Below, piece by piece: positions 4,325 to 25,946 of a stretch of DNA of 64,000 bases (position 1 is its first letter; each line of letters starts with the position of its first letter). A model generated the notes under the pieces. That model was not told the origin of the DNA, searched no databases, and was given only the letters and a program-made list of their open reading frames with translations. The position numbers and the translations under genes are program-made. The DNA comes from Micromonospora sp. NBC_01796 (GTDB lineage: Bacteria; Actinomycetota; Actinomycetes; Mycobacteriales; Micromonosporaceae): NCBI RefSeq assembly GCF_035917455.1, contig NZ_CP109078.1, positions 7,610,001-7,674,000 on the forward strand. Direction: 5' to 3'.

Positions 4325-6876
4325 TGCTGCGCGCAACCCTGAAGAGCCTGCTCGCCCGCAAGGTCAGGTTGATCCTGTCCGGGCTGGCCGTGGTGCTGGG
4401 CGTCATGTTCGTCTCCGGCTCGTTCGTGCTCACCGACACCCTCGGGCGTTCCTTCGACTCGGTGTTCAGCGACGCGTACGCCAACACCGACGTGAACGTG
4501 GCGGCGAAACCGAAGATCGCGATGAACGAGTTCGAGGGCGAGCAGCTCGCGAACCCGCTGCCGGCGGCCACCCTGGACGCCGTACGGAAGGTGCCCGGTG
4601 TTGCCGAGGCGACCGGGGTGGTGGCGACCGACGGTGCCCGCCTGATCGGCAGCAACGGCAAGGTCGTCACCTCGTTCGGGCCGCCGCAACTCGGCGAGAA
4701 CTGGACCGGCGAGGACGACCTGGTGAAGTTGCGCGAGGGCCGCGCCCCGACCGCCGACACCGAGATCGTGATCAACGCCGGGCTGGCCAAGGCGGCCAAG
4801 GTCAAGGTCGGCGACCGGGTCGGCGTACTGGTCGACCTGGCGCCGAAACAGGAGTTCACCCTGGTCGGGGTCTTCGGTTACAGCGGTGACCGGGACAGCC
4901 TCGGCGGGGTCAACGAGGTGGCGTTCACCGACCCGGTCGCCCAGCGGCTGATGCTCGGGGAGACCAACGTCTTCACCAACATCGCCGTACGCGCCCAGGA
5001 CGGGGTCGACCAGGCCACGCTGCGCGACCGGGTCGCGGCGGCGGTCGGCGACGGGTACGAGGTGAAGACCGGCAAGCAACTCTCCGCCGACTCCTCGGCC
5101 GGGTTGAAGGAGGGACTGGCCTTCTTCAACCAGATCCTGCTCGGCTTCGCCGGGGTGGCGCTGCTGGTCGGCACCTTCCTGATCCTCAACACCTTCTCGA
5201 TCATCGTGGCGCAGCGCACCCGTGAGCTGGCCCTGATGCGGGCGATCGGGGCCAGCGGCAGGCAGGTGATCCGCTCGGTCCTGGTCGAGGCGGTGGCGAT
5301 CGGCCTGGTCGCCTCGATCCTGGGCCTGGGCGCCGGGATCGGGGTCGGTGCCCTGCTGGCGTACGCTTTCGGGCAGTTCGGCGGCGGCCTGGAACTGGCC
5401 GGCGTGGGTGTGCCACCGATCGCGGTGATCAGCTCGTTCGCGGTCGGGATCCTGATCACGGTGGTCGCCGCGCTGATCCCGGCGATGCGCGCCTCCCGGA
5501 TCCCGCCGATCGCGGCGATGCAGGACGTGGCCACCCCGGATCGCCCCCTGACCAAGCTCACGGTAGCCGGAGCGGTGGTGTCGGTACTCGGTGCCGGGCT
5601 GCTGACCCTGGGTCTGACCGGTACGGCCGGCGACGCGATCCTCGGCACCATCCTGGGTGGTGTGCTGCTCGCGTTCATCGGGGTGGCCCTGCTGACCCCG
5701 GTGATCAGCCGGCCGGTGGTGTCCCTGCTCGGCCGGATCTTCTCCTGGTCGGTGCCGGGCAAGCTCGGCCGGCTCAACTCCGGTCGCAACCCGCGTCGGA
5801 CCGCGATCACCGCCGCCGCCCTGATGATCGGCATCGCGCTGGTCACCGGAGTGACGATCATCCTGGACTCGGCCAAGTCGAGCATCTCGGGGCTGGCCGA
5901 GGACACCATCAGCGCCGACCTGGTGATCTCCGGTGCGCAGTCCGGGCCCCGGCCGCCGACCTTCGACCCGGTGGTCCTGGACCGGGCCGCCGCCCTGCCC
6001 GGCGTGAAGGCCGTCGCCGGTTTCTGGGGCGACATGGCGCTGGTCAACGGGAAGCGCGAATTTGTCAACGCGACCAACGACGTGCCGGCGATGCGGGACA
6101 TCTACGGGCTGAAGGCGACCGCCGGCAGCATCGACTCGCTCACCCCGGACCAGGTGCTGGTCGACGCCGACACCGCGCGGGACCTCGGCCTCGCCGTCGG
6201 CTCCACCGTGCCGGTGCAACTGTCCCGGGGTGACCCGCACACCTACGCGATCAGCGGCATCTATGCCGATTCGGAGCTGTACAGCGGCTTCCTGCTGCCG
6301 CCGGCCGCGACGAAGGACTTCGCCATTCCCCGGCCGTCGCAGGGCTACGTGCAACTGGACCCGGGCACGTCGGTCGGGCAGGTGCTGCCGGCGGTCGAGT
6401 CGCTGCTCGCGGACAGTCCCGAGGTGTCGGTGGCCGACCGGGCTGCGTTCATCAAGCAGCAGACCGGGCAGTTCGACACCCTGCTCCGGATGATCCAGAT
6501 CCTGCTGGCGCTGGCGATCCTGATCGCCGTACTCGGGATCGTGAACACGCTGGCGTTGTCGGTGCTGGAGCGGACCCGCGAGTTGGGGCTGCTCCGGGCG
6601 ATCGGGCTGAACCGGGCCCGGACCATGTGGATGGTGACCGTGGAGGCCGTGGTGATCTCGGTCTTCGGCGCGCTGCTCGGGATGGCCGTCGGCACCGGTC
6701 TCGGTGCGGCTGTGGTCCGCGCGCTACGCGACGACGGCATCACCGATCTGGTCCTGCCGTGGGCGCAGCTCGGCGTACTGATCGGCCTGGCCGCGGTGGT
6801 CGGCGTGGTCGCGGCGGTGCTGCCGGCGATCCGTGCCGCCCGGATCAACGTGTTGGGGGCCATCGCGCACGAATAG
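4324..6876 (+). CDS. FtsX-like ABC transporter permease (unit 2)
   Basis: 850-aa paralogue of the permease at 657. N-terminal MLRATLKSLLARKVRLILSG membrane anchor, MacB core domain, three helices around 265-390, second extracytoplasmic domain, and three C-terminal helices with the ending ARINVLGAIAHE. The start codon overlaps the ATPase stop. Unlike the ATPases, the two permeases are clearly diverged along their whole length and have ordinary high-GC codon use, so they probably export or handle different substrates while sharing nearly the same motor. Confidence 0.94.
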   Translation: MLRATLKSLLARKVRLILSGLAVVLGVMFVSGSFVLTDTLGRSFDSVFSDAYANTDVNVAAKPKIAMNEFEGEQLANPLPAATLDAVRKVPGVAEATGVVATDGARLIGSNGKVVTSFGPPQLGENWTGEDDLVKLREGRAPTADTEIVINAGLAKAAKVKVGDRVGVLVDLAPKQEFTLVGVFGYSGDRDSLGGVNEVAFTDPVAQRLMLGETNVFTNIAVRAQDGVDQATLRDRVAAAVGDGYEVKTGKQLSADSSAGLKEGLAFFNQILLGFAGVALLVGTFLILNTFSIIVAQRTRELALMRAIGASGRQVIRSVLVEAVAIGLVASILGLGAGIGVGALLAYAFGQFGGGLELAGVGVPPIAVISSFAVGILITVVAALIPAMRASRIPPIAAMQDVATPDRPLTKLTVAGAVVSVLGAGLLTLGLTGTAGDAILGTILGGVLLAFIGVALLTPVISRPVVSLLGRIFSWSVPGKLGRLNSGRNPRRTAITAAALMIGIALVTGVTIILDSAKSSISGLAEDTISADLVISGAQSGPRPPTFDPVVLDRAAALPGVKAVAGFWGDMALVNGKREFVNATNDVPAMRDIYGLKATAGSIDSLTPDQVLVDADTARDLGLAVGSTVPVQLSRGDPHTYAISGIYADSELYSGFLLPPAATKDFAIPRPSQGYVQLDPGTSVGQVLPAVESLLADSPEVSVADRAAFIKQQTGQFDTLLRMIQILLALAILIAVLGIVNTLALSVLERTRELGLLRAIGLNRARTMWMVTVEAVVISVFGALLGMAVGTGLGAAVVRALRDDGITDLVLPWAQLGVLIGLAAVVGVVAAVLPAIRAARINVLGAIAHE

Positions 6877-6897
6877 CCGCTCCGGGGGACGGGGGGT

Positions 6898-6931
6898 GGT
6901 GGGGCGGCGTCCGGGGGGACGCCGCCCCACC
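6898..6931. terminator. Bidirectional terminator hairpin
   Basis: Perfect 15-bp stem (GGTGGGGCGGCGTCC with its complement) and GGGG loop between the convergent permease and HAD genes; it sits 21 bp after one stop and 7 bp from the other, so it can serve both strands. Confidence 0.8.
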
Positions 6932-6938
6932 GCACGTC

Positions 6939-7598
6939 TCAGGCCGGCGTGGTGGGCAGGTCCAGCGGGGCCACCAGGCGGGCCAGCAGGTCCAGGTCCG
7001 CACCGGTCAGGCTCTCCAACAGGTGTACGCCGTCCACCCGGCCCAGCGGCACCTCGCTGGGCACCGCGAGTACGGCGGCACCGGCGGCAACCGCACTGGC
7101 CACCCCGGCCGGCGAGTCCTCGATCGCCACACACCGCTCGATCGGCACCCCGAGCATCCGGGCGGCGGTCAGGTACGGCTCCGGATCCGGTTTCGTCGCC
7201 AGCACCTCGTCACCGCAGACCACCACGTCGAACCGGTCCCGTCCGAGGGTTTCGAGGGCGACCTCGACCAGTTGCCGAGCGGTGGAGGTGACCAGCGCGG
7301 TCGGGATCCCGGCGGCCCGGACCAGGTCCAGCAGCCCGACAGCGCCGGGACGCCAGGGCAGTCCGGCGACGAAGAGCTCGGCCATCCGCTTCTCCAGCCA
7401 GGCCGCGCCGTACGCGGGGTCCCGGTCCTGGGCGAGGTCGGTGTTCAGGATCGCCATCGAGCTGGCCATGCTGGAGCCGATCATCGCCAACCGGGCGGGC
7501 TCGGAGAGCCGACCGCCGTAGTGGGCGGCCAGTTCGTGCAGGGCGACGTCCCACAGCTTCTCGCTGTCGACGAGCGTGCCGTCCATGTCGAAGAGCAC
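6939..7598 (-). CDS. HAD-family hydrolase (beta-phosphoglucomutase/phosphatase type)
   Basis: 219-aa subclass-I HAD enzyme. Motif I DMDGT begins at residue 4, motif II is the threonine/serine in TALVTSTAR, motif III lysine in VLATKPDPEPY and motif IV in IEDSPAGVASA. This pattern is that of sugar-phosphate phosphatases and beta-phosphoglucomutase-like proteins; substrate cannot be told. GTG at 7598 puts the DMDGT motif unusually close to the N-terminus. A GGGAGGAT ribosome site lies before an in-frame CTG at 7622, so translation might begin there and add eight residues. Single gene, convergent with the exporter. Confidence 0.9.
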   Translation of the reverse strand: MLFDMDGTLVDSEKLWDVALHELAAHYGGRLSEPARLAMIGSSMASSMAILNTDLAQDRDPAYGAAWLEKRMAELFVAGLPWRPGAVGLLDLVRAAGIPTALVTSTARQLVEVALETLGRDRFDVVVCGDEVLATKPDPEPYLTAARMLGVPIERCVAIEDSPAGVASAVAAGAAVLAVPSEVPLGRVDGVHLLESLTGADLDLLARLVAPLDLPTTPA

Positions 7599-7730
7599 GG
7601 CGGCGGGATGCTGGCCAGTCAGGGGATCCTCCCGGGTACGAGCGCTGATCCCCCGATCATGCCAAGCACGGGTCGGGGCGGTGCGCGTACTCGGGGTGAA
7701 CTGTGGCCGATCCCTCAGGTGCCGGCGGGG

Positions 7731-8462
7731 TCAGGTCAGGTCGCAGGCGGCGAAGGAGCGCTCGTAGCCACGGAAGAAGGAGTCGATCCGCTGCTCGGCG
7801 GTGCCGTGCGAGCCCTCGGCGAACCACGGCTGGTCCGGGTCGTCGCCGACCGCCACCAGCCCGGCCCGGAACTCGTCCAGGTCACCGTCCTGGAGGTCGA
7901 GCTGCCGCTCCTGGACCGAGTCACCGATGTACGCCCCGGCCATGCAGTCGGCCTGTAGCTCCGCCTGGATCGTGAACTGGTGCTGGATGCCGAGTCGCGC
8001 CTGGATCGCGTGGGCGTACTCGTGGCCGAGCAGGAAGAACAGGAACGCGTCCCCAATCTGCCGGAAGGCGGCGACCGCCCAGTTCACGTCGTACGCGATG
8101 AAGTCCCCGGCCGGGCAGTAGACCGCGTTGTTGCGCGGTACCGCCTGCTCACCGCAGGAGACCTCCCCGTCGCGGGAGTACGCGAACACCCGCCGGACCG
8201 GCTGGAACCGCTGCCGGGACTCGGTGAACCGCTCGTCCCAGTACTGCTCGGCGAGCCGGACCGCGCCGGGGATGTCCCGCTCGAACTCCTCGACCGTGCC
8301 CGACCCGTCGACCGGTTCGCCGGATGACGGCGCCGGAGCCGGAGCGGGCTCCTCCCCCGGCGTCGTGGGTCCGATCGCGCAGGCGAGCGTGACCACCAGC
8401 ACCGTAACCAGGCCGAGCAGACCTGCGCCCCGACCGGATCGGTACCCGGTTGCTGTCTGCAT
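7731..8462 (-). CDS. Neutral zinc metallopeptidase, lipoprotein-like
   Basis: 243-aa protein of the neutral zinc metallopeptidase family (YpfJ/KPN_02809-like). The zinc-binding HEYAH motif is at residues 147-151; further metal and fold motifs include the AELQADCMAG and later EGSHGTAEQRI segments. A hydrophobic N-terminus ends in VTLAC, so C28 may be lipidated, although position -3 is not ideal for a lipobox. A Pro/Ala/Glu linker follows. ATG 8462 was chosen because GAGGAGG lies 7 bp upstream; the frame itself continues to 8618. Probably an extracellular membrane-attached peptidase; target unknown. Confidence 0.88.
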   Translation of the reverse strand: MQTATGYRSGRGAGLLGLVTVLVVTLACAIGPTTPGEEPAPAPAPSSGEPVDGSGTVEEFERDIPGAVRLAEQYWDERFTESRQRFQPVRRVFAYSRDGEVSCGEQAVPRNNAVYCPAGDFIAYDVNWAVAAFRQIGDAFLFFLLGHEYAHAIQARLGIQHQFTIQAELQADCMAGAYIGDSVQERQLDLQDGDLDEFRAGLVAVGDDPDQPWFAEGSHGTAEQRIDSFFRGYERSFAACDLT

Positions 8463-8619
8463 GGCGGCCTCCTCGGCGATCGTGGCCGCCCGACGTCCGG
8501 CGGTGGTTCCATAATTCCCGCCCGACCGGTTCCTGACCACGATCCACATTGGCACGTGCCGACCGGAGTGCCGAGCCCGGGGCCCCACGGTCGACGAAGG
8601 GCCCGGCGGGCCGACCACA

Positions 8620-8654
8620 AAGCCGGCTGGCCGTACGACACGGCCAGCCGGCTT
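8620..8654 (-). terminator. Terminator hairpin after the MFS gene
   Basis: Perfect 15-bp stem (AAGCCGGCTGGCCGT and complement) with an ACGAC loop, 20 bp downstream of the MFS stop. Confidence 0.75.
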
Positions 8655-8673
8655 CTCGTCACCGCCCGGGTGT

Positions 8674-10128
8674 CTACCGGCTGCCGGCGCCGATCGGTGT
8701 CGGCGTTACCAGCGGGGTCGACGTCTGGTCGGCGACCGGACGGGGCGTACGCCGGATGGTGGGTACGAGCAGCGCCGCCGCGACGGCGAGCACGGAGAGC
8801 CCGGCCAGCAGGGCGAACCCGTGGGTGTAACCGGCCTCCCGGGGCAGCCCGCTCGTCTGGAGGTTGCTGGTGACGATGCTGCTCATCATGGCCGCGCCGA
8901 TCGCGCCGCCGATCGTACGGATGTTGGCGTTCATTCCAACCGCGGCGCCGGTGTGGTGGGCGGGCACGCTCTTCACGATCAGGTTCGTCATCGCCGAGTA
9001 GGCCAGGCCGATACCGAGGCCGAAGACGGCCGCGGCGGCGCCGAGTTGCCAGCGCTCGTCATGTGCCACGACGAGCGCGGCACAGGCCACCACGCTGAAC
9101 GCCGACCCGGTGATGAGCTGCGCCTTCGCGCTGAAGACTCCTTCGAGACGTCCGCTGAGCAGGCCGGCGACGAACATGGTGACCAGCATCGGCAGCATCA
9201 GCAGGCCGGCCTCGGAGACGCTGGCGCCGAAGCCGTACCCGGCCGACGCGGGGGTCTGGGTGAACTGCGGGAGGAAGCCGTAGAGGGCGAACATCGCGCC
9301 ACCGAACAGGAGCGCGACCAGGTTGGTCGCCCGGACGGCCGGCAGCCGCATGATCCGCATGTCGATCAGGGGGTTGGTCGAACGGACCTCGGTGGCGGCC
9401 CAGGCGGCGAAGACCACGACCGCGACCACCAGCAGCCCGATCACCTTCGTCGACGTCCAGCCCCACTTCGGCGCCTCGCTCACCGCCAGCAGCAGCGCGA
9501 CGAGCCAGCCGGACATCAGTGCCGCGGAGAGCAGGTTGATCCGGCCCCGGTTCCGTACCGGCGACTCCGGCACCAGCAGGTACGCCGCCAACGCCGTCAG
9601 CGCCACGATCATCAGCGGGATCCAGAACAGCCACCGGTACCCGAGCAGGCCGACGATCGGTCCGGCGAGCACGACGCCCAGGCCGCCGCCGACCGCGATG
9701 ATGGCCGACATCGCTCCGATCGCGGAGGACATCCGGGACGCCGGGAACTCGTCCCGGATGATGCCGAACGACAGCGGGAAGACCGCACCGCCGACGCCCT
9801 GGATGAGCCGGGCGATGATCAGCACGGTGATGTTGGGCGCGATCGCGGCCAGCAGGCAGCCGACCGCGAGGCCGACCAGGGTGAGGACCAGGATGCGTTC
9901 CTTGCCGACCATGTCGCCGACCCGGCCGAGGATCGGGGTGAAGATCGCGGCGGAGAGCAGGTACGCGGTCAGCACCCAGGTGACCGTGCTCTGTGAGGTG
10001 TGCAGGTCGTGCTGGATCGTGGAGAGCACCGGGCTGATCAGCGACTGCATCATCGCGAAGAAGCCGGCCCCGGCCGCGAGTACGGCAAAGGTCAACTGCC
10101 GAGGGGTACGTCTGGTGGTCGATGCCAC
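8674..10128 (-). CDS. MFS drug:H+ antiporter, DHA2 type
   Basis: 484-aa, about 14-helix major facilitator of the DHA2 (EmrB/QacA) family, typically exporting drugs or cationic compounds. The first helix is followed by the conserved STVTWVLTAYLLSAAIFTPI motif-C/A region and GRVGDMVGKERIL (motif A, loop 2-3). GTG 10128 is the start because AAGGAAG sits 6 bp upstream and helix 1 follows directly; upstream sequence in frame is non-coding and holds the palindromes. Divergent from a TetR gene and separated from it by three palindromes, the classic layout of a repressor-controlled efflux pump. Substrate unknown. Confidence 0.93.
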   Translation of the reverse strand: MASTTRRTPRQLTFAVLAAGAGFFAMMQSLISPVLSTIQHDLHTSQSTVTWVLTAYLLSAAIFTPILGRVGDMVGKERILVLTLVGLAVGCLLAAIAPNITVLIIARLIQGVGGAVFPLSFGIIRDEFPASRMSSAIGAMSAIIAVGGGLGVVLAGPIVGLLGYRWLFWIPLMIVALTALAAYLLVPESPVRNRGRINLLSAALMSGWLVALLLAVSEAPKWGWTSTKVIGLLVVAVVVFAAWAATEVRSTNPLIDMRIMRLPAVRATNLVALLFGGAMFALYGFLPQFTQTPASAGYGFGASVSEAGLLMLPMLVTMFVAGLLSGRLEGVFSAKAQLITGSAFSVVACAALVVAHDERWQLGAAAAVFGLGIGLAYSAMTNLIVKSVPAHHTGAAVGMNANIRTIGGAIGAAMMSSIVTSNLQTSGLPREAGYTHGFALLAGLSVLAVAAALLVPTIRRTPRPVADQTSTPLVTPTPIGAGSR

Positions 10129-10255
10129 GAGAACTTCCTTATGGAGTAGCTGGAATAGATCCTGCCGATGGCCCGATCGGCGCGCCTGGTCGTCCGGCGG
10201 GCGGACATCGAGCGAACGTGCTGCGCCACCCCGTTCCGACGGGGAGGTAGAGTAT

Positions 10256-10328
10256 CTGGAGGGCTCCCTCCGGACATTCCGATACCGGAGGGGTGCCTCC
10301 GAAAACATTACCGGAGGGATACCTCCGG
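10256..10328. promoter_or_regulatory. Triple palindromic operator between MFS and TetR genes
   Basis: Three related 18-bp palindromes at 10256-10273, 10285-10302 and 10311-10328, spaced 29 and 26 bp. The best is CCGGAGGGATACCTCCGG (7-4-7); the others differ by one or a few bases. They lie just upstream of the tetR start and within the shared promoter region, so binding would repress both genes. Sites are seen; TetR binding is inferred. Confidence 0.75.
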
Positions 10329-10355
10329 TCGCAACAGAAGTAGGGAGACCCGGCT

Positions 10356-10937
10356 GTGACGAGCGCCGCACAGGTACCCGAGACCCTCTCCCGACGCCCG
10401 AAGCGGGCCGACGCGCTGCGCAACTACGAGAACCTGGTCTCCGCCGCGCGCGACGCCTTCGCCGAGCACGGGTCGTCGGCGTCGCTGGAGGACATCGCCC
10501 GACGGGCACAGGTCGGCATCGGAACGCTCTACCGGCACTTCCCGACCCGCCGGGACCTCTTCGAGGCCGTCTACGTCGAGGAGGTCGAGGCGCTGTCCCG
10601 CTCCGCCAACGACCTGGCCGACGCACCACCGTGGGACGCGCTGGTGGGCTGGTTGCACCGGCTGGTCGGATACATCGCCACGAAGCGGGCGCTGGCCGAG
10701 GAACTGCTGCACGACTCCGAGATCTTCCAGCGGTGCCGTACCGAGGTCTACGACGCGGGCCGGCCGCTGCTCGTACGCGCCCAGTCGGCCGGGGTGGTGC
10801 GCCCCGACACCAACATCGACGACGTGATGCGGCTGGTCAGCGGCATCACGATGATCAAGGTGAGCGAGCCGGGTCAGCTCGACCGGGTGCTCGACATGGC
10901 CCTCGACGGCCTGCGCCCCCAGACACCGAAGGGCTGA
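10356..10937 (+). CDS. TetR/AcrR-family transcriptional regulator
   Basis: 193-aa TetR repressor. The helix-turn-helix is in residues about 25-65 (AFAEHGSSASLEDIARRAQVGIGTLYRHFPTRRDLFEAV), with a ligand-binding helical domain after it containing LLHDSEIF, seen in the SbtR/YcdC-like actinobacterial group. GTG 10356 has AGGGAGA upstream. It starts 28 bp after the last of three palindromes, and is divergent from the MFS pump, so autoregulation and control of the pump are the likely roles. Inducer unknown. Confidence 0.93.
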   Translation: MTSAAQVPETLSRRPKRADALRNYENLVSAARDAFAEHGSSASLEDIARRAQVGIGTLYRHFPTRRDLFEAVYVEEVEALSRSANDLADAPPWDALVGWLHRLVGYIATKRALAEELLHDSEIFQRCRTEVYDAGRPLLVRAQSAGVVRPDTNIDDVMRLVSGITMIKVSEPGQLDRVLDMALDGLRPQTPKG

Positions 10938-10938
10938 C

Positions 10939-11664
10939 TCAGTCCCCAGGCAGGTGCGTCACCGAGTTGTACTCGGCCAGCACCAGCCGCCCGGTATCGC
11001 CGGTCCAACGGGTGATCGAGGCGTTCGCCACCATGCCGGCCCGGACGACCGATTCCAGGTCCGGCAGCGACAGCCCTTCGACCAGGTGGCGCAACATCAA
11101 CACCACCGAGTCGTGCGCCACCAGGAGCACCCGTGCTCCGGCATGCTCCCGGCGTACGTCATCGAGCAGTGTCCGGAGGCGGGCGGCGACGTCCAGCAGC
11201 GACTCCCCGCCCGGCGGACGCCAGTGAAACCCGCCGACGGCGGCCCGGCGGGCCGCCTCGGCCGGGTACCGCGCCGCGATCGCCGCGCCGGTCAGCAGCT
11301 CCAGCTCACCCATGACCCGGTCCCGCAGCCGGTCGTCGATCCTCGGCGCCGGTAGGTCCGGGCCGCCCGCCGCCCGCGCCGCGTCCGCCGCCAACCGCCA
11401 GGTCTGCACGGCCCGGAGGTACGGCGAACAGAGCACCACCTGCGGCCGGTGCTCCATCGCGAGCGCCCCGAACCGGTGCCCGAGCCCCACCGCCTGTGCC
11501 TGCCCGAGCGGCGAGAGTGCGATGTCCGCGTCCCGGCCGGTGACCCCGCTCTCGACCCTGCCCGCCGCTTCGGCCAGGGCGAACGCCGCGTTGGCGGTGC
11601 TCTGCCCGTGCCGGACCACCGTCAGTTCCGCGATCTCGGCGGGTGGGGATCGACGGTCCACCAC
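10939..11664 (-). CDS. Histidine phosphatase family protein
   Basis: 241-aa branch-1 histidine phosphatase (phosphoglycerate-mutase-like). The RHG motif lies at residues 18-20 (LTVVRHGQSTAN), with the second arginine/glutamate region RYLRAVQTW and the late histidine in LLVAHDSVV. GTG 11664 is used because GGAGG lies 12 bp upstream. Its stop is two bases from the tetR stop, so the two genes converge with almost no spacer. Substrate unknown; a second, different family member is encoded at 47374. Confidence 0.9.
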   Translation of the reverse strand: MVDRRSPPAEIAELTVVRHGQSTANAAFALAEAAGRVESGVTGRDADIALSPLGQAQAVGLGHRFGALAMEHRPQVVLCSPYLRAVQTWRLAADAARAAGGPDLPAPRIDDRLRDRVMGELELLTGAAIAARYPAEAARRAAVGGFHWRPPGGESLLDVAARLRTLLDDVRREHAGARVLLVAHDSVVLMLRHLVEGLSLPDLESVVRAGMVANASITRWTGDTGRLVLAEYNSVTHLPGD

Positions 11665-11695
11665 ATCACCCCGTTTCCTCCGGCAGCTACCAGGG

Positions 11696-11815
11696 TCAAC
11701 GGTTGCGGCGGCGACGGGACATCGCCCAGAGGACCCCACCGAGCGTCGCGACGAACAGCGGCAGCAGGCAGACGATCGACAGTACGACCACATGCCACGG
11801 CTTGATTGCACCCAT
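11696..11815 (-). CDS. 39-aa single-pass membrane protein
   Basis: Starts MGAIKPWHVVVL, has one hydrophobic helix of about 23 residues (WHVVVLSIVCLLPL to VLW), and ends with a basic SRRRRNR tail, so the C-terminus is predicted to be cytoplasmic. It fills the gap upstream of the histidine phosphatase in the same direction. Small proteins of this build are frequent in actinomycetes. No function can be assigned. Confidence 0.6.
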   Translation of the reverse strand: MGAIKPWHVVVLSIVCLLPLFVATLGGVLWAMSRRRRNR

Positions 11816-11869
11816 TCGCCGTACCCTACGGTGATCTTCCCTCCGTCGGGTCCCCGGATCCGCCCGGCC

Positions 11870-12661
11870 TCACAGGACGCCGTCGAGCTGGGCGAACAAC
11901 TCCGCCGGTACGGCGCGGTCGTGCCGCCGGGCCAACTCGATCCAGTACTGCCGCCCGTGTTCCCAGGCCGCGCGCAACCCCGCCCGTACGCCGTCCTCGT
12001 CCGCGCGGACCGTGGTGTCCAACAGTGCGGACACGGCCCGCGACGACAGTTCGTCCTCGGCCCGGCGCGACGGGGTCAACCAGTGCGCGGTGCTCTGCTC
12101 GGCCAGCCGCGCCATCCACGTCAGGTGCCGGTGCGCGTGGCCCAACGCGTCCCACGCTCGCAGCGTCTCACCCCGACTCGCGACGTGGTGGGCCAGGACC
12201 AGCCAGTTCGCGAACCGGCCACAGAGCGTCTCGATCTCCTCGGCGTCGATCGGCACGACCGGCTGCCGGGGCACCGCGTCCAGGACCGGACGCAGTGCCC
12301 CGCCCCGATCCAGCACGATCATCCGGTCCGTCGCCGCACCACGGGCCGGCCAACTCCGCACGCTCGGGATGTCGTCGGTGGTGGCGAAGTGGAACTCGCC
12401 GCGTACCAGGTCGGGGAAGAACACCACGTCGGTGCCGAACTCGTTGCGTACCACGTGGGTCACCGGGGCGATCCGCTCGCACCAGCCACGCCGGTCGACC
12501 GCGTCGCGCAGGTCCGGCCGGAAGAACAACCAGAACTCCACATCGCTGTACGCGTCCGCCTCACCGATCGCGAACGACCCGTACATCAGTGCCGCGTCGA
12601 GGCGCTCGTCGGCCAGACAAACCTCACGCGTACGCGCGATCAACCGTTCCTGGACCAGCAC
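11870..12661 (-). CDS. Nucleotidyltransferase, Lnu(B)/Lnu(F)-like
   Basis: 263-aa member of the DNA polymerase beta-like nucleotidyltransferase superfamily. The signature GSF-AIGEADAYSDVE is at residues 28-42 with acidic metal ligands D40 and E42. Length, the single N-terminal catalytic motif and the C-terminal helical part resemble lincosamide nucleotidyltransferases such as Lnu(B) and Lnu(F), which adenylylate lincomycin or clindamycin. GTG 12661 gives the expected N-terminus; an in-frame TTG at 12700 is an alternative. It stands alone and could equally act on an unknown native substrate; resistance is inference. Confidence 0.78.
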   Translation of the reverse strand: MLVQERLIARTREVCLADERLDAALMYGSFAIGEADAYSDVEFWLFFRPDLRDAVDRRGWCERIAPVTHVVRNEFGTDVVFFPDLVRGEFHFATTDDIPSVRSWPARGAATDRMIVLDRGGALRPVLDAVPRQPVVPIDAEEIETLCGRFANWLVLAHHVASRGETLRAWDALGHAHRHLTWMARLAEQSTAHWLTPSRRAEDELSSRAVSALLDTTVRADEDGVRAGLRAAWEHGRQYWIELARRHDRAVPAELFAQLDGVL

Positions 12662-19770: not shown

Positions 19771-20517
19771 TCAGAGTTGCCGGCTGATGCCCAGTGCCAC
19801 GGTCCGGACGGCCGGGCCGACCGCGCGCAGGTCCAGCCGGTCGGCCCAGCCCGATACGGAGACAGCCCCGGCCGGGCGCCCGTCGGCGTACAGGACGGCG
19901 CTGGCGACGCACCCGACCCCGGCACCGGATTCCTCGCTCTCGTACGCCACCCCGCACTCCCGGATCCGCGCCAACTGCCGTCGTAGCAGGCCGGGAGCGG
20001 TGATCGTACGCGGGCCGACCATCCTCAGTGGCTGGTCGCAGACGAGGGAGATCGCGGGCTCACCACTGAACGCCAGCAGTGCCTTGCCGACCGCCGAGGC
20101 GTGCGCGGGCAACCGACCGCCCACCTCGGACGGCATCGACGGCGCGTCCCGCCCCCGCAGAACCTCGACGTAGACAACGTCGGTGGCCTCGAGGACCGCC
20201 AGGTGCACACTCAGCCCCGTCGCCTCGCGCAGGTCAGCAAGGTACGGCGGGGCGATCGTCCGCAGGTCACGCCGACGAGCGGCGAACTCCCCGATCTCGA
20301 ACACCCGGACGCCTATCCGCAGCGACGGTCCGGTGCGTTCCAGGAACCCGTACGTCACCAGGTCGGCCACCAGCCGCGAGGTTGTCGACATCGGCAGTCC
20401 GGCACGACGACTGACCTCGGACACCCGCAGTTCGCGGTGTCGTGCGTCGAACGCGCCGAGGACCGCCGACACCCGGGCGACGGCCATGTCGGGGATGTTC
20501 CGCTCAGCGGCACGCAC
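19771..20517 (-). CDS. IclR-family transcriptional regulator
   Basis: 248-aa IclR regulator: N-terminal winged helix (VARVSAVLGAFDARHRELRVSEVSRRAGLPMSTTSRLVADLVTYGFLERT) and C-terminal effector domain with VEVLRGRDAP and GVGCVASAVLYADGRPAGAVSVSG. Family members PcaR, PobR and PcaU control aromatic-acid catabolism, fitting the divergent dehydrogenase. GTG 20517 or TTG 20520 both follow AAGGAG. A palindrome at 20560-20573, matching one before the tetR gene, lies in its promoter region. Confidence 0.93.
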   Translation of the reverse strand: MRAAERNIPDMAVARVSAVLGAFDARHRELRVSEVSRRAGLPMSTTSRLVADLVTYGFLERTGPSLRIGVRVFEIGEFAARRRDLRTIAPPYLADLREATGLSVHLAVLEATDVVYVEVLRGRDAPSMPSEVGGRLPAHASAVGKALLAFSGEPAISLVCDQPLRMVGPRTITAPGLLRRQLARIRECGVAYESEESGAGVGCVASAVLYADGRPAGAVSVSGWADRLDLRAVGPAVRTVALGISRQL

Positions 20518-20559
20518 CAATGCAGCTCCTTGACAGGTCCGCCGAATCGTAGCTTACTA

Positions 20560-20573
20560 ACGGACCAGTTCGT
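20560..20573. promoter_or_regulatory. 14-bp palindrome shared with the tetR-qsuB promoter
   Basis: ACGGACCAGTTCGT (6-2-6, one mismatch) between divergent iclR and dehydrogenase genes. The same pattern ACGNAC-NA-GTNCGT, followed by ACAT, occurs at 25798-25811. Likely operator of the TetR protein encoded at 25061. Confidence 0.6.
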
Positions 20574-20629
20574 ACATTCACTGTCGCGGATCGTCCACGG
20601 CGGTGGGCGATGACGGGAGTCTCACCCCC

Positions 20630-21502
20630 ATGCAACCTTGCCGGTACGGCCTGATCGGTGCGGGGATCGGGGCATCGCTGTCGCCGGTGCTGCACGAGAC
20701 CGAAGGTCGTCATCACGGTCTGGACCTGTCGTACCGGCTGATCGATGTGGACGAGCCGGGGACCCCGTCCGACCTCGGCCGCCTGTTGGACGACGCCGAG
20801 GCGGATCGGCTCGCCGGCCTCAACATCACCCACCCGTTCAAGCAGCAGGTCATCGACCTGCTCGACGACCTCTCCCCGCAGGCTCGCGACATCGGGGCGG
20901 TCAACACCGTCGTGTTCCGCGACGGTCGACGGCTTGGTTTCAACACCGACGCGTACGGGTTCGCCGAGTCGTTCCGGCGGGGACTGCCGGACGCGCCGGT
21001 CGACCGGGTGGTGCAGCTCGGCGCCGGTGGCGCGGGCGCGGCCTGCGCGTACGCCCAACTGAGCGCGGGCGTCGGGCACCTCACCGTGGTCGATCCGGAC
21101 ACCGAGCGGCGCGGTGCCCTGGGTGAGGCGTTGGAGGGACGGTTCGACATCCACCGGATCGCGGTGGCCGCACCCGACGAGTTACCCGCCGCTCTGGAGC
21201 ACGCCGACGGCCTGGTCAACACCAGCCCGGTCGGCATGCGGACGCACCCGGGGATCCCGCTGCCCGTCGGGTTGCTGCACCCGGGGCTGTGGGTGGTCGA
21301 CGTCATCTACATGCCGGTCGAGACCCAACTGCTGCGCTCCGCCCGGGCGAACGGGCTGCGTGCCATCGGTGGCGCGGCGATGTGCGTGTTCCAGGCCGCG
21401 GCGGCGTTCGAGCTGCTCACCGGCCGTACGCCGGACACCGAACGGATGCTCGGCCACCTCGACCGGCTGCTGAACGGCAGTGGACACCATGTCCGGGCCT
21501 GA
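20630..21502 (+). CDS. Quinate/shikimate dehydrogenase (AroE/QsuD-like)
   Basis: 290-aa member of the shikimate dehydrogenase family. Substrate domain: SLSP at 16-19, GLNITHPFKQ with catalytic K71, GAVNTVV and D107 in FNTDAYGF. Nucleotide domain: glycine-rich VVQLGAGGAG near 130, then VVDPDTER with an acidic residue after the second strand, which favours NAD+ rather than NADP+. The NITHPFKQ form and P-V-E-T-Q-L-L motif match catabolic quinate/shikimate dehydrogenases better than biosynthetic AroE. Expected reaction: shikimate to 3-dehydroshikimate (or quinate to 3-dehydroquinate). GGGAG precedes the ATG by 10 bp; a GTG at 20603 is the alternative. Transporter gene follows. Confidence 0.85.
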   Translation: MQPCRYGLIGAGIGASLSPVLHETEGRHHGLDLSYRLIDVDEPGTPSDLGRLLDDAEADRLAGLNITHPFKQQVIDLLDDLSPQARDIGAVNTVVFRDGRRLGFNTDAYGFAESFRRGLPDAPVDRVVQLGAGGAGAACAYAQLSAGVGHLTVVDPDTERRGALGEALEGRFDIHRIAVAAPDELPAALEHADGLVNTSPVGMRTHPGIPLPVGLLHPGLWVVDVIYMPVETQLLRSARANGLRAIGGAAMCVFQAAAAFELLTGRTPDTERMLGHLDRLLNGSGHHVRA

Positions 21503-21667
21503 ACGGGTGCGACCCGCTCCCCCACCGAACCACGCCCGCGCCACCCACACCTCGGTGCTCCCCCGCGGCGTGGTCGTCGCGGCGAGGCGGCCCACCGCCG
21601 ACGTGCACCGGCAGCGCCCGAGGGCGCTGGAACCCCCTCTCCACCACCACACCCCTGGAGTTTCCCG

Positions 21668-23092
21668 ATGAGTCAACCAGCAACACGACCGGAAACAGCC
21701 GCCCCACCCGACGGCGGCACCGTCACCCAGCAACTACCGGAACCCATGTCGCTACGCCGGATGGTCGGCCCCGGCGTCGTGGCGGTCGGGATCGGCATGG
21801 CGGCCGGAGAGATCATTCTCTGGCCGTACCTCACCGCGATCGGTGGACTGGGCCTGCTGTGGTTGGCGTTCGCCACGCTCGCCGTCCAGTTCGTCATCAA
21901 CATGGAGATCGAGCGCTACACCCTCGCCACCGGACAGACCGCCGTCGCCGGGTTCTCCCGCTGGTGGAAAGGTTGGGGCATCGTCATCTGCCTGGCCGGG
22001 GCGTTCCAGTACGTCTGGCCGGGCTGGGCCACCGGCGGGTCCACCGTCTTCACGTACCTGGTCGGGGGCGGTGACGCCGTCTGGATCACGGTCGCCGTGC
22101 TGGTCGTCATCGGCGGACTGCTGTCCGCCTCGAAGGTCATCTACAAGACCGTCGAGCGGGTCGAGGTCGTGAAGGTCGCACTCACGCTGTTCTTCCTCGC
22201 CGTCATCGTGGTTTTTGTCATCTCGCTGTCCACCTGGGGAGAGGGCGCGAAGGAGACGGTTCTCGGGTTCGGCCAGATCCCCGCCGGCATCACCTTCACC
22301 CTGCTGCTCAGCGCGATCGGTGCCGCAGGCGCGGGCGGTGTGCACAACCTGGTGCTCAGCAACTGGATCCGGGACAAGCGGTACGGGATGGGCGCACACG
22401 TACCGCGACTCATCTCCCCGATCACGGGCCGGGAGGAGGCATCGGGCGCCGACCGCTACACGTTCCCCCAGGACGAGCAGAACCTCGCCCGTTGGAAGAC
22501 GTGGTGGAAGCGCGCCAACACCGAGCACTTCTTCGCCTTCCTCCTGGTCTGCTTCGTGACCATCACGATCATGAGCCTGCTCGCGTACGAGACCCTCTTC
22601 GGGCGGGACGACCTCAAGAACGACACGACGTTCCTGCGGATCGAGGGCGATATCCTCGCCTCCCAGGTCGGCGAATGGCTCAAGCTGCTGTTCTTCGCGA
22701 TCGCCGCCGTCTCGCTGTGGGCCGCCGCGATGGGGCTGCTCGACGTCATCGGCCGGGTGGCGAGCGACTTCCTCCGCCGCAACTACCTCGCCGACTCGGC
22801 CCGGTGGACCGAGGCCCGCCTGTACCTGGCGATCGTCTGGGCCGAGATCGTCCTCGGCTCGATCATCCTGCTCTCCGGTTTCACCCAACCGATCGGCCTG
22901 CTGCTCGTCTCGACCTGCGCCGCGTCGGTGGTCACCCTGCTGTACTCGATCCTGCTCGTACGCCTCAACACCAGGGACCTCCCCACCGCGATCCGGCTGC
23001 GCGGATGGCGGCTCGGCGGCATGGTGACGGCGATCGGCTTCTACGGGTTCTTCGCCATCGCCATGGTGGTCACCCAGATCCAGAAGCTCTGA
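21668..23092 (+). CDS. Nramp-fold transporter lacking canonical metal-site residues
   Basis: 474-aa membrane protein with about eleven helices. The repeat structure and GPGVVAV start of helix 1, ATGQ after helix 2 and G..HNLVLSN in helix 6 place it in the Nramp (natural resistance-associated macrophage protein) superfamily. Canonical Nramps coordinate Mn/Fe through DPGN in helix 1 and MPH in helix 6; here those positions read AAGE (45-48) and GVH (224-226). The metal site is thus absent, and divalent-metal transport is doubtful. It lies 165 bp after the dehydrogenase in the same direction, where related clusters have an MFS shikimate importer, so uptake of shikimate, quinate or a related acid is a reasonable inference. 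No direct proof. Confidence 0.82.
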   Translation: MSQPATRPETAAPPDGGTVTQQLPEPMSLRRMVGPGVVAVGIGMAAGEIILWPYLTAIGGLGLLWLAFATLAVQFVINMEIERYTLATGQTAVAGFSRWWKGWGIVICLAGAFQYVWPGWATGGSTVFTYLVGGGDAVWITVAVLVVIGGLLSASKVIYKTVERVEVVKVALTLFFLAVIVVFVISLSTWGEGAKETVLGFGQIPAGITFTLLLSAIGAAGAGGVHNLVLSNWIRDKRYGMGAHVPRLISPITGREEASGADRYTFPQDEQNLARWKTWWKRANTEHFFAFLLVCFVTITIMSLLAYETLFGRDDLKNDTTFLRIEGDILASQVGEWLKLLFFAIAAVSLWAAAMGLLDVIGRVASDFLRRNYLADSARWTEARLYLAIVWAEIVLGSIILLSGFTQPIGLLLVSTCAASVVTLLYSILLVRLNTRDLPTAIRLRGWRLGGMVTAIGFYGFFAIAMVVTQIQKL

Positions 23093-23154
23093 CCCGACAC
23101 GCTCTGAGCAACGCGCTACCCGGTCGGGACCGACGCCATCGGCTCCCGGCCGGG

Positions 23155-25035
23155 TCAGCTCCCGGACAGGCGCAGGTGACGGTGGGCGGCCATCCGGACG
23201 GGTGCGTTCGACTCGCCGAAGCCGTCGTACCCGCCCCGGCGCTGCACGATCTCGAAGAAGACCCTTCCCCCGTACACCGGGGTGTAGAGGTGGAGCAGTT
23301 CACCGCCGCGCTGGTCGCGATCGTAGAGGATGCCGTGCCGGCGCAGGCGCGCGACCAGGTCGTCGGCGAGGGCGAACCGGGCGACCAGGTCGGCGTAGTA
23401 GTTCTCGGGTACGTGCAGCGTGGTGCCGCCGAGCCGGTCGATCGCCGCCGCGGTGGCGAAGATGTCGGCGGTGGCGAAGGCGACGTGCTGCGGGTCGACA
23501 ACGGCGGGAGCCCACTCGCCACGACGCAGCAGCGCCACGGTCAACGCGAGCCGTACCGCCCGGTCCGGGGTGGCGTAGGCGCGCGAGCGCATGAGCCCGA
23601 ACGGTGCCGCGTACTCCTCGGTGCTCAGCCGGTCGAGCCCGAGCACGGAGTGGTAGAACAGCCCGGCCTCGTCGAAGTGGTCGAAGGGCTGCGCCAGCCC
23701 GAGATGGTCCGTGGCGGTGAGGCCGGCGTCGCCCGCGACCTCGTCCCCCGTGGGCAGGAAGTCGGCCCGCCAGTCGTTGTCGTCCCGGCTGAGGAACACC
23801 GACGTACCGTCGGGGGCCGCGACGGCGGGCAGGTCCGCCTCGCGCGGACCCCGGACACGCGGAAGTGCCGGCGCGAGCAACGCCTCCGCCCGCGCCCGCG
23901 ACCGTTCTGGATCCTCGGTCGTCAACGCGAAGGCGCTCATCGCGGCGGTCCCCGGGGTCTGCGGGCGGGTCACCGCACTGTTGAGGATCACCCGGCAGGT
24001 GCCCTGCTCCCACAGCTCCACCGGCTTGGACCGGTGCTGCCCGGTGTGGGCGAAACCCAGACCCCGCAGCGCGGCCTGCAACACCGGCCCCGACCGGCCG
24101 TCCACCGCAAACTCACTGAAACCGTGTACGGACAACGCCGGCGCCTCCGGTAGCCGACGAACCTCGACGCCCGACCCGCCCGCCGGTCGAAGGCTGTCCT
24201 CCAGGGCGATCAGCGACCGCATCCCGTCGACGGCGGTACGCACCGGATCGGCCTGCCGGAAGACGTCGTTGAACACCTCGAGCGACAGCGGTCCGGTGTA
24301 ACCCGCGGCGAGCACCCGGTGGACGAACGAGGTCAGGTCGAACGATCCCTGTCCGGGGAAGAGCCGGTGGTGCCGGCTCCACTGCAGGACGTCCATGCTC
24401 AGATGGGGTGCGTCGGCAAGCTGAAGGAAGAAGATCTTGCCCGGGGTGATGTCGGCGATGCCGGCCGGGCTGACGTCGCGCGACAGCACGTGGAAGGAAT
24501 CCAGGCACAGCCCGAGCGCGGGATGGTCGGCCCCACGCACGATCCGCCACGAGTGGTCCCATGTGGACACGTGCCGTCCCCACGCCAATGCCTCGTACGC
24601 GATCCTCATCCCCCTGGTCTGGGCGCGGTCGGCCAGCAGCGCGAGCTGCTCGGCCGCCAGATCGTCGTCGTCGACGGCCGCCGGTGCGACCGACGAGCAG
24701 ACCAGCATGGTGTCGACACCCAGCTCGGCCATCACGTCGAACTTGTGTTCCGCCCGCGCCAGATTGGCCTTCAGCAGCGCCGGTGGCACCGCCTCGAAGT
24801 CACGAAACGGCTGGTAGAGGTCGATGCTGAGACCGAGGTCGGCGCACCGGGCGCGGACCTCACCCGGCGACCAGGGCGCCACCACGAGATCGTTCTCGAA
24901 CAGCTCGATCCCGTCGAACCCGGCGGCGGCAGCAGCCGCGATCTTGTTGTCGAGGGTGCCGGAGATGCACACCGTCGCCACCGACCGGCGCAGCGCGCCA
25001 CGTCCGGCCGAGGTAAATGCGCGGTCGCTACTCAT
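23155..25035 (-). CDS. qsuB: 3-dehydroshikimate dehydratase fused to HPPD-like domain (QsuB-like)
   Basis: 626-aa two-domain enzyme. Residues about 15-290 form a xylose-isomerase-like TIM barrel (sugar phosphate isomerase/epimerase family) with metal-binding positions in GFDGIELFENDL, CLDSFHVLSRD, FLQLADAP and SLEVFND; this is the dehydratase part, converting 3-dehydroshikimate to protocatechuate. Residues about 320-626 are a vicinal-oxygen-chelate/4-hydroxyphenylpyruvate-dioxygenase-like domain with GLGFAHTGQHRSK and the late VFFEIVQRR metal glutamate. This fusion and length match Corynebacterium QsuB. GGAAGG lies 7 bp before the ATG. It is 25 bp downstream of tetR, so probably co-transcribed, and converges with the transporter. 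Confidence 0.88.
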   Translation of the reverse strand: MSSDRAFTSAGRGALRRSVATVCISGTLDNKIAAAAAAGFDGIELFENDLVVAPWSPGEVRARCADLGLSIDLYQPFRDFEAVPPALLKANLARAEHKFDVMAELGVDTMLVCSSVAPAAVDDDDLAAEQLALLADRAQTRGMRIAYEALAWGRHVSTWDHSWRIVRGADHPALGLCLDSFHVLSRDVSPAGIADITPGKIFFLQLADAPHLSMDVLQWSRHHRLFPGQGSFDLTSFVHRVLAAGYTGPLSLEVFNDVFRQADPVRTAVDGMRSLIALEDSLRPAGGSGVEVRRLPEAPALSVHGFSEFAVDGRSGPVLQAALRGLGFAHTGQHRSKPVELWEQGTCRVILNSAVTRPQTPGTAAMSAFALTTEDPERSRARAEALLAPALPRVRGPREADLPAVAAPDGTSVFLSRDDNDWRADFLPTGDEVAGDAGLTATDHLGLAQPFDHFDEAGLFYHSVLGLDRLSTEEYAAPFGLMRSRAYATPDRAVRLALTVALLRRGEWAPAVVDPQHVAFATADIFATAAAIDRLGGTTLHVPENYYADLVARFALADDLVARLRRHGILYDRDQRGGELLHLYTPVYGGRVFFEIVQRRGGYDGFGESNAPVRMAAHRHLRLSGS

Positions 25036-25060
25036 GGCTCACCTTCCGGGGGTACGGGGG

Positions 25061-25714
25061 TCAGCGCTGGCCGAGGTAGCCGACCACCATGTCGGCGAGC
25101 ATCGTGCGGTAGTGCTCGCGTGACGCCGGATCGAGCAGGTCCCGACCGAACAGCGCGCCGAAGGTGTGGCGGTTCGCGACCCGGAAGAAGCAGAAGGCGC
25201 TGATCATCATGTGTACGTCCAGCGCGTCGACGTCGGTGCGGAACGTACCGGCCTGCTGTCCACGGGCGAGCACCCCGCGCAGTACGTCGACCGCCGAGCT
25301 GTTGAGGTCCACCAGCCGGGCGACGTGACTCATGTTCTCGGCCCGCTGGCCGTTCTCGACGCCGACGAGCTTGATGAACGCTGGGTGCGCCTCATGATGG
25401 TCGAAGGTGACGTCGGCGATCCGGCGGATGGCGGCGACCGGATCGAGCTGGTCGACGTCGATGGCCCGCTCGGCCGCCCGGATCTCGGCGTACGCACGCT
25501 CCAGCACGGCGAGGTAGAGCTGCTCCTTGCCACCGAAGTAGTAGTAGATCATCCGCTTGGTGGTACGCGTACGCGCCGCGATCTCGTCCACCCGCGCCCC
25601 GCTGTAACCCTGGTTGGCGAACTCCTCCGTAGCGACGTCGAGGATGTCGACCCTGGTCCGCTCGGCGTCACGCCGACGATCGACCTCGGGCTCTGGTGCC
25701 GCCTGCCGGCTCAC
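25061..25714 (-). CDS. TetR-family regulator of the dehydratase operon
   Basis: 217-aa TetR protein. Helix-turn-helix region residues about 25-70 (ILDVATEEFANQGYSGARVDEIAARTRTTKRMIYYYFGGKEQLY), then a helical C-terminal domain of the type found in the AcrR C-terminal family 17/RutR-like regulators. GTG 25714 has AGAAGGAG 5 bp upstream. It is the first gene of a two-gene unit with qsuB and has a palindrome at 25798-25811 ahead of it. Likely a repressor released by a pathway intermediate. Confidence 0.92.
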   Translation of the reverse strand: MSRQAAPEPEVDRRRDAERTRVDILDVATEEFANQGYSGARVDEIAARTRTTKRMIYYYFGGKEQLYLAVLERAYAEIRAAERAIDVDQLDPVAAIRRIADVTFDHHEAHPAFIKLVGVENGQRAENMSHVARLVDLNSSAVDVLRGVLARGQQAGTFRTDVDALDVHMMISAFCFFRVANRHTFGALFGRDLLDPASREHYRTMLADMVVGYLGQR

Positions 25715-25797
25715 GAAACTCCTTCTCCCGTCGGGCTTCGGGTCGGTACGGACACTCTGTCGACACCGAACCCGGCTGCCACCCGCCAGCATAACGA

Positions 25798-25811
25798 ACG
25801 TACTAGTGCGT
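25798..25811. promoter_or_regulatory. 14-bp palindrome upstream of tetR-qsuB
   Basis: ACGTACTAGTGCGT (6-2-6, one mismatch), 84 bp before the tetR start, same layout and flanks as 20560-20573 (both followed by ACAT). Confidence 0.6.
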
Positions 25812-25946
25812 ACATCCGTGCCACGGACCCGCCGCGATGTATCGCGAGCGGCCACGTTGACGGCACGATGGTGAACGCCGTGTTTTCAGGGGTCGGTCAG
25901 CAGGTGCCATGGTGTGTCGTTCGCCCGGGAGAGCTGAGGGATTCGG

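Follow-up and report, generated by a model that had tools for sequence, protein, structure and literature searches.

An Nramp-related membrane protein encoded with shikimate catabolic enzymes in Micromonospora sp. NBC_01796: a probable importer of an organic acid

Which compound is carried by an Nramp-related membrane protein whose gene lies between two genes of shikimate catabolism? The question is raised by a five-gene cluster of Micromonospora sp. NBC_01796, located at positions 19771-25855 of the window, the stretch of 64,000 nucleotides analyzed here, which corresponds to bases 7610001-7674000 of a single-contig 8.56-Mb genome. The cluster encodes an IclR-family regulator, a shikimate dehydrogenase (SDH), an Nramp-like protein of 474 aa, a QsuB/QuiC-type dehydratase, and a TetR-family regulator. 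The open reading frames and families of this module had been proposed in a first-pass annotation, and the coordinates and the Pfam and NCBIfam matches agree with that proposal. The same annotation suggested that the Nramp-like protein moves a hydroaromatic or aromatic acid, or a coupled ion, instead of manganese or iron; this interpretation as a whole is partly supported by our analysis, the substrate being deduced from genomic context. In this work, we argue that the Nramp-like protein probably imports shikimate or a closely related acid, organic-acid import being its most likely function; the acid as cargo, the direction of transport, the exact substrate, and the coupling are what we infer from sequence comparisons.

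According to the proposed mechanism, the Nramp-like protein (21668..23092, plus strand) would bring shikimate, or a dehydroshikimate- or quinate-like hydroaromatic acid, into the cell, perhaps coupled to protons via its invariant residue Glu48. The SDH (20603..21502, plus strand), a QsuD-like protein of the PRK12549 subfamily as judged by family models and its open reading frame, would convert shikimate to 3-dehydroshikimate, the two-domain QsuB/QuiC-type 3-dehydroshikimate dehydratase (23155..25035, minus strand) would produce protocatechuate, whose ring would be opened by a 3,4-dioxygenase encoded outside the cluster. This order of reactions is predicted from the family functions of the cluster enzymes and from the host pcaH gene, which lies some 135 kb away at C1:7768897 and whose product matches the protocatechuate 3,4-dioxygenase beta subunit above the cut-off. 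The SDH scores 385.3 bits against the PRK12549 subfamily model (cut-off 235) and 236.3 bits against the model of NAD quinate/shikimate dehydrogenases (cut-off 515). The dehydratase combines AP_endonuc_2 and HPPD N-terminal-type domains of Pfam and reaches 592.3 bits against the QuiC model, below the cut-off of 1200, so it is regarded as a homologue and not called an equivalog. No 3-dehydroquinate dehydratase was recognized by Pfam or NCBIfam among the scanned cluster genes of the window, which makes the use of quinate less evident. A second, weaker SDH homologue of the host (C1:102977, 34%, 66.5 bits) is probably the biosynthetic AroE. The carrier encoded by the qsuABCD operon of Corynebacterium glutamicum is an MFS protein. 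The same two enzymes, an SDH-type protein and a two-domain dehydratase, are encoded in this quinate/shikimate operon (PMC7442255; published sources are cited here and below from excerpts).

The association of the Nramp-like gene with these enzymes is conserved among close relatives of the window, to which the comparison was confined. A single scan of genome contigs yielded 36 such loci, which are mutually related; five of them (L034, L050, L060, L064, and L065) are truncated at a contig end, and the genes of unannotated loci were called by a codon-bias open reading frame finder, their starts being estimates. The closest relative found by the scan is Plantactinospora alkalitolerans, with an Nramp-like protein matching at 90%. 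Within 9 kb of the Nramp-like gene, a homologue of SDH is present in 34 of the 37 loci (the window and the 36 relatives), of QuiC in 24, of the TetR regulator in 32, and of the IclR regulator in five, the window included. The SDH gene lies upstream of the Nramp-like gene on the same strand in 34/37 loci, and in 27 of these 34 the gap between its stop and the estimated start of the Nramp-like gene is at most 30 nt, or the genes overlap. In 11 of the 37 loci the SDH gene is kept beside the Nramp-like gene with no QuiC gene nearby, and L065 has QuiC and TetR without SDH. The flanks vary between groups of loci, and the core genes are constant. With SDH present in 34/37 loci, a chance neighbourhood was rejected. 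The linkage claimed by the first-pass annotation thus extends to the clade, since SDH, QuiC, or both occur within 9 kb in 35/37 loci; a setting mainly among unrelated genes, which the annotation had named as grounds for abandoning its proposal, is not observed in the close clade. In two loci, L042 (Actinomadura rudentiformis) and L053 (Streptomyces oryzae), meta-cleavage-type genes, rather than one for a two-domain QuiC, were seen near the pair of SDH and Nramp-like genes; the FAA_hydrolase-type, acetaldehyde dehydrogenase, and DmpG-type aldolase products of these neighbours fit meta-cleavage of aromatic rings.

Which carriers occupy the corresponding position in other clusters? A strong QuiC match was obtained in 35 of the 296 genomes of the class, the host included. 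The window aside, 35 QuiC places, spread over 34 genomes, were compared. MHS and TRAP carriers were called by tblastn (E <= 1e-15) with queries drawn from these loci. Within 9 kb, 15 of the 35 places have an MHS-family MFS protein, 10 a TRAP carrier, one (L168) an Nramp-like protein, and nine none of them, and no place has two; since L155 and L187 are overlapping stretches of a single contig and seemingly share one TRAP carrier that is counted twice, the TRAP count is 9 or 10. A single carrier type for all SDH-QuiC clusters was therefore rejected, three types being found. Seven of the 15 MHS proteins were scanned, and their best model is that of a metabolite/H+ symporter (352-383 bits, cut-off 443), followed by the E. 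coli shikimate transporter ShiA (267-318 bits, cut-off 538); for TRAP, one DctP and one DctM protein (L156) score above their cut-offs. The MHS-type clusters of other actinomycetes contain homologous SDH and QuiC and mostly a homologous TetR regulator, and their carrier is a ShiA-like MHS symporter (in the seven of 15 scanned), whereas the window has the Nramp-like protein.

No MHS or TRAP homologue was found within 9 kb in any of the 37 loci of the clade. Among QuiC places, MHS or TRAP carriers occur at 0/25 of those with an Nramp-like gene and at 25/34 of those without (Fisher p 2.2e-9, a value that is too small because the loci are related, some contigs are short, and one TRAP carrier is counted twice). 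This pattern agrees with the first-pass view that the Nramp-like protein stands in place of an MFS importer; as is the case for shikimate importers by function, its gene is found with those of SDH and the dehydratase where other clusters have another carrier. The Nramp-like protein would accordingly fill the place of the ShiA-like MHS symporter or TRAP carrier of homologous clusters. In the trees of QuiC and SDH, L168 falls with the MHS-type clusters rather than the Actinoplanes group, which makes two or more acquisitions of the Nramp-like gene by such clusters probable. Searches of the host genome gave no good match to the alternative carriers, with best scores of 37 bits for MHS, 58 of 268 bits for the TRAP dctM model, and 85 of 419 bits for aromatic-acid symporters. 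The direction of transport is unreadable from sequence, and the protein might instead export a pathway intermediate, such as protocatechuate or dehydroshikimate, and so protect the cell. Yet both carrier types that it would replace, ShiA-like and TRAP, are importers, and export is in our judgement the least probable of the explanations considered.

The family relationships of the Nramp-like protein bear on whether its cargo could be a metal. It scores 480.9 bits (cut-off 50) against the NCBIfam model NF037982, named "Nramp family divalent metal transporter", and so belongs to the Nramp family in the broad sense, and no Pfam family, PF01566 included, matches it at E <= 0.001. Canonical Nramp (SLC11) proteins such as MntH, which NF037982 also matches, have the motif DPGN in transmembrane segment 1 (TM1), a methionine in the motif MPH of TM6, and a PF01566 match; these features are found in the canonical Nramp of the host itself (PF01566, 302 bits; NF037982, 175.7 bits; DPGN and MPH). 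In the window protein, by contrast, residues 45-48 read AAGE and align column by column with DPGN in the profile alignment, so that the metal-binding aspartate is replaced by alanine and the asparagine by glutamate. This part of the motif claim of the first-pass annotation stood, while its replacement of MPH by GVH is approximate only: no methionine is found at the MPH place in any alignment, the register of TM6 being uncertain by one or two residues. A canonical manganese transporter was rejected on the basis of the motif, AAGE for DPGN, and of the missing Pfam match. The NRMT magnesium transporters likewise lack the canonical site and fall outside the canonical Nramps (PMC8806188, PMC4072509), but their signature DxxG-TxxA/T (PMC8806188) differs from the AxxE found in TM1 of the window protein.

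AAGE and GVH are present in all 38 rows of the clade (the window, the 36 loci, and one duplicate contig), and the other 39 rows of the same alignment have ASGE, SSGE, GSGE, GLGE, or similar in TM1. Gly47 and Glu48 are invariant in 46/46 diverse members. In amino-acid carriers of the APC superfamily, a GSG motif holds the carboxylate of the substrate, and the TM1 stretch of the Nramp-like proteins (e.g. GSGEYVLWP) resembles it. The invariant Glu48, at the canonical asparagine position, would also fit a coupled cargo, either a counter-ion or a metal-acid complex, for which this residue would act as cation ligand, and one Nramp-related branch has TerC-type neighbours (3 of the 122 neighbouring proteins tallied below), relatives of which export manganese. 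TerC is not among the recurrent neighbours of the window clade, and we consider a coupled cargo very unlikely, if marginally less so than export.

Compared directly by profile, the window clade and the canonical Nramps match weakly (E 0.009, probability 4.5). A small intermediate set, made up of one GSGE protein and three with the GAGD motif, matches both sides, with probabilities of 99 and 98, and the profile alignment with canonical Nramps bridged by this group is colinear; the support for a possible LeuT-type fold of the Nramp-like protein comes from this profile alignment. The eight members of the window clade included in a 57-protein tree form one group with a support of 100. The Nramp-like protein is a member of an uncharacterized branch of NF037982-type Nramp-related proteins. 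Groups of Nramp-related proteins beyond the NRMT-like one and the one holding MntG are called entirely uncharacterized in the excerpted text of a 2026 preprint, where MntG is placed in the "G-motif 3" group (PMC12873925). The host encodes a further Nramp-like relative (46%, C1:8277926), for which no catabolic link was seen, and a distant paralogue (about 25%, C1:6813886; locus L099, G000:C1:6804500-6824400, 5572-12359) whose neighbours encode a class III CoA transferase and an ADP-forming CoA ligase; the latter cluster may, as a guess, be of an oxalate type.

The main rival to acid import is that the Nramp-like protein imports a divalent cation as cofactor of the dehydratase (Co2+, Mg2+, or Mn2+), as proposed for MumT and urea carboxylase, and that shikimate enters through an unlinked carrier. 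MumT of a urea operon and YcsG/MntG of a 5-oxoproline operon are described as Nramp-related proteins encoded, like the window protein, within catabolic operons, and both are reported as manganese importers (PMC5050338, PMC10448178). In the same sources, deletion of mumT led to less cellular manganese and poorer growth on urea (PMC5050338), and overexpression of ycsG to more cellular manganese (PMC10448178); QsuB, in turn, needs or is activated by Co2+, Mg2+, or Mn2+ (PMC7442255). The name of the NF037982 model, a divalent metal transporter, points the same way. An earlier annotation of YcsG as an importer of 5-oxoproline is cited in PMC10448178, so both readings have already been proposed for one protein. 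Metal supply is nevertheless difficult to reconcile with the absence of the metal-binding aspartate and methionine, and it leaves unexplained why MHS and TRAP carriers are absent exactly where the Nramp-like gene occurs, why this gene is kept with SDH in the 11 loci without a nearby QuiC, and why some branches lie beside FMN-dependent dehydrogenases. The manganese uptake reported for MumT and YcsG/MntG keeps metal supply in consideration, and we rate it as unlikely. Uptake of shikimate or a similar acid, in comparison, would account for the conserved linkage, for the replacement of known acid carriers that are also missing from the host, for the loss of the motif, and for the pattern of the family.

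This family pattern was studied in the neighbourhoods of other Nramp-related branches. For a tally, 37 loci were hand-picked, about one per genus, and six of them (L102, L112, L114, L137, L224, and L225) were dropped for size, leaving 31 loci with 122 proteins of at least 90 aa from two genes on each side; L101, L103, L105, L106, L115 (whose gene was missed by the open reading frame finder), L121, L127, L130-L133, L135, L138-L144, L188, L189, L191, L227, L229, L231, and L233 stand outside it. The control of canonical Nramps comprised 20 loci and 120 proteins from three genes on each side and is thus not exactly matched; both tallies cover the 25 commonest families, so families with two or fewer members may be hidden. 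The neighbours of the other branches include LUD (5 of 122), FMN_dh (4), FAD-oxidase_C (3), GD_AH (2), SBD_N (2), DHDPS (2), and PfkB (2), and those of canonical Nramps the iron-dependent repressor (4 of 120) and FeoA (3). Some branches adjoin an FMN-dependent hydroxy-acid dehydrogenase, a PfkB kinase, a DHDPS-type, and a mandelate-racemase-type enzyme; others adjoin LutB/LutC-type proteins, a lactate racemase domain, a sugar-acid kinase, PdxA, and an altronate/galactarate dehydratase. Twelve plasmid records had a match and seven were viewed: an FAD- and Fe-S-binding protein is encoded nearby in three of four haloarchaeal plasmids, isocitrate lyase on an Aureimonas plasmid, and an aldolase/citrate lyase-family protein about 7 kb away on a Halomicrococcus plasmid; a Nonomuraea record has no annotation.

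From these contexts we tentatively propose, with a confidence falling a little short of even, that the xxGE-motif branch of NF037982-type proteins in actinomycetes, haloarchaea, and Aureimonas may consist of hydroxycarboxylate importers (for shikimate, lactate, glycolate, four-carbon sugar acids, altronate/galactarate, and perhaps oxalate), that metal transport by Nramps may be a later specialization of an organic-acid carrier, and that the name "divalent metal transporter" may be wrong for this branch.

Several observations weigh against import of an organic acid by the window protein or its relatives. Neither SDH nor QuiC occurs in L043 and L046, two of the 37 clade loci, and in 13/37 no QuiC is found within 9 kb. 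MHS and TRAP carriers are also missing from nine of the 34 other QuiC places, so their lack is no proof of replacement. Other proteins with at least five predicted transmembrane segments are encoded within 7 kb in 19/37 clade loci; they are not conserved across the group, and some of them look MFS-like by eye (L032, L037). The contig of L168 ends just past the Nramp-like gene, where a further carrier is possible. As an acidic residue, Glu48 could itself be a cation ligand. The AlphaFold model of the Nramp-like protein, built from a shallow alignment of 36 close sequences, has a predicted local distance difference test score (pLDDT) of 47, and a sequence search of the PDB with this protein gave no match. 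In the wider family, two of the three haloarchaeal loci with the FAD- and Fe-S-binding protein carry an L-lactate permease of their own, and several more loci have no clear catabolic neighbour. In the Blastococcus-like branch (L100-L103, L105, and L106), the gene keeps a fixed place among what are, by eye, apparent housekeeping genes (IF-2-like, ispG-like) with no catabolic neighbours.

Further observations concern the remaining genes of the cluster and individual loci of the wider family. The IclR-family regulator (19771..20520, minus strand; Pfam IclR_C and HTH_IclR) is divergent from the SDH gene, and the TetR-family regulator (25061..25855, minus strand; Pfam) has an uncertain start. Rfam and tRNA scans of the window gave no match and no riboswitch family. 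Among viral contigs, six stretches fitted a pattern, and none was a relative of the Nramp-like protein. In L223-L226, which encode GSGE-motif members, the neighbours resemble glycolate oxidase subunits by eye, from the starts of their sequences. On the Rubrobacter indicoceani plasmid (L141, 3566-17201), a UxaA-family gene lies between two Nramp-like genes, with adjoining lut genes and genes for a four-carbon acid sugar kinase, PdxA, and a lactate racemase domain. The loci L136, L137, L232, and L233 represent a branch about 25% alike, in which a constant gene set recurs: the Nramp-like gene is accompanied by 2-oxoacid oxidoreductase-type genes, a TerC-type gene, and a short membrane-like open reading frame, and in some of the loci also by a gene for a class V aminotransferase. 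In L190 (4143-8069), a GAGD-motif Nramp-related gene lies near genes for a DHDPS-type enzyme and an aldehyde dehydrogenase, resembling glucarate catabolism by eye.

A search of the open-licence literature, with most terms matched loosely, gave, among the matches listed, no title or abstract on an Nramp-family carrier of an organic acid; the nearest prior claim is that of YcsG as a 5-oxoproline importer, as cited in the excerpted PMC10448178. An Nramp outgroup has been suggested as a link between non-metal and metal carriers (PMC4072509). The clade described here comes with a candidate substrate and with alternative carriers known from homologous clusters, and it lends itself to a simple growth assay. 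If import of an organic acid is true, many annotations would be corrected, the origin of the manganese phenotypes of MumT and MntG would come into question, and the Nramp fold would gain what is believed to be its first organic substrate.

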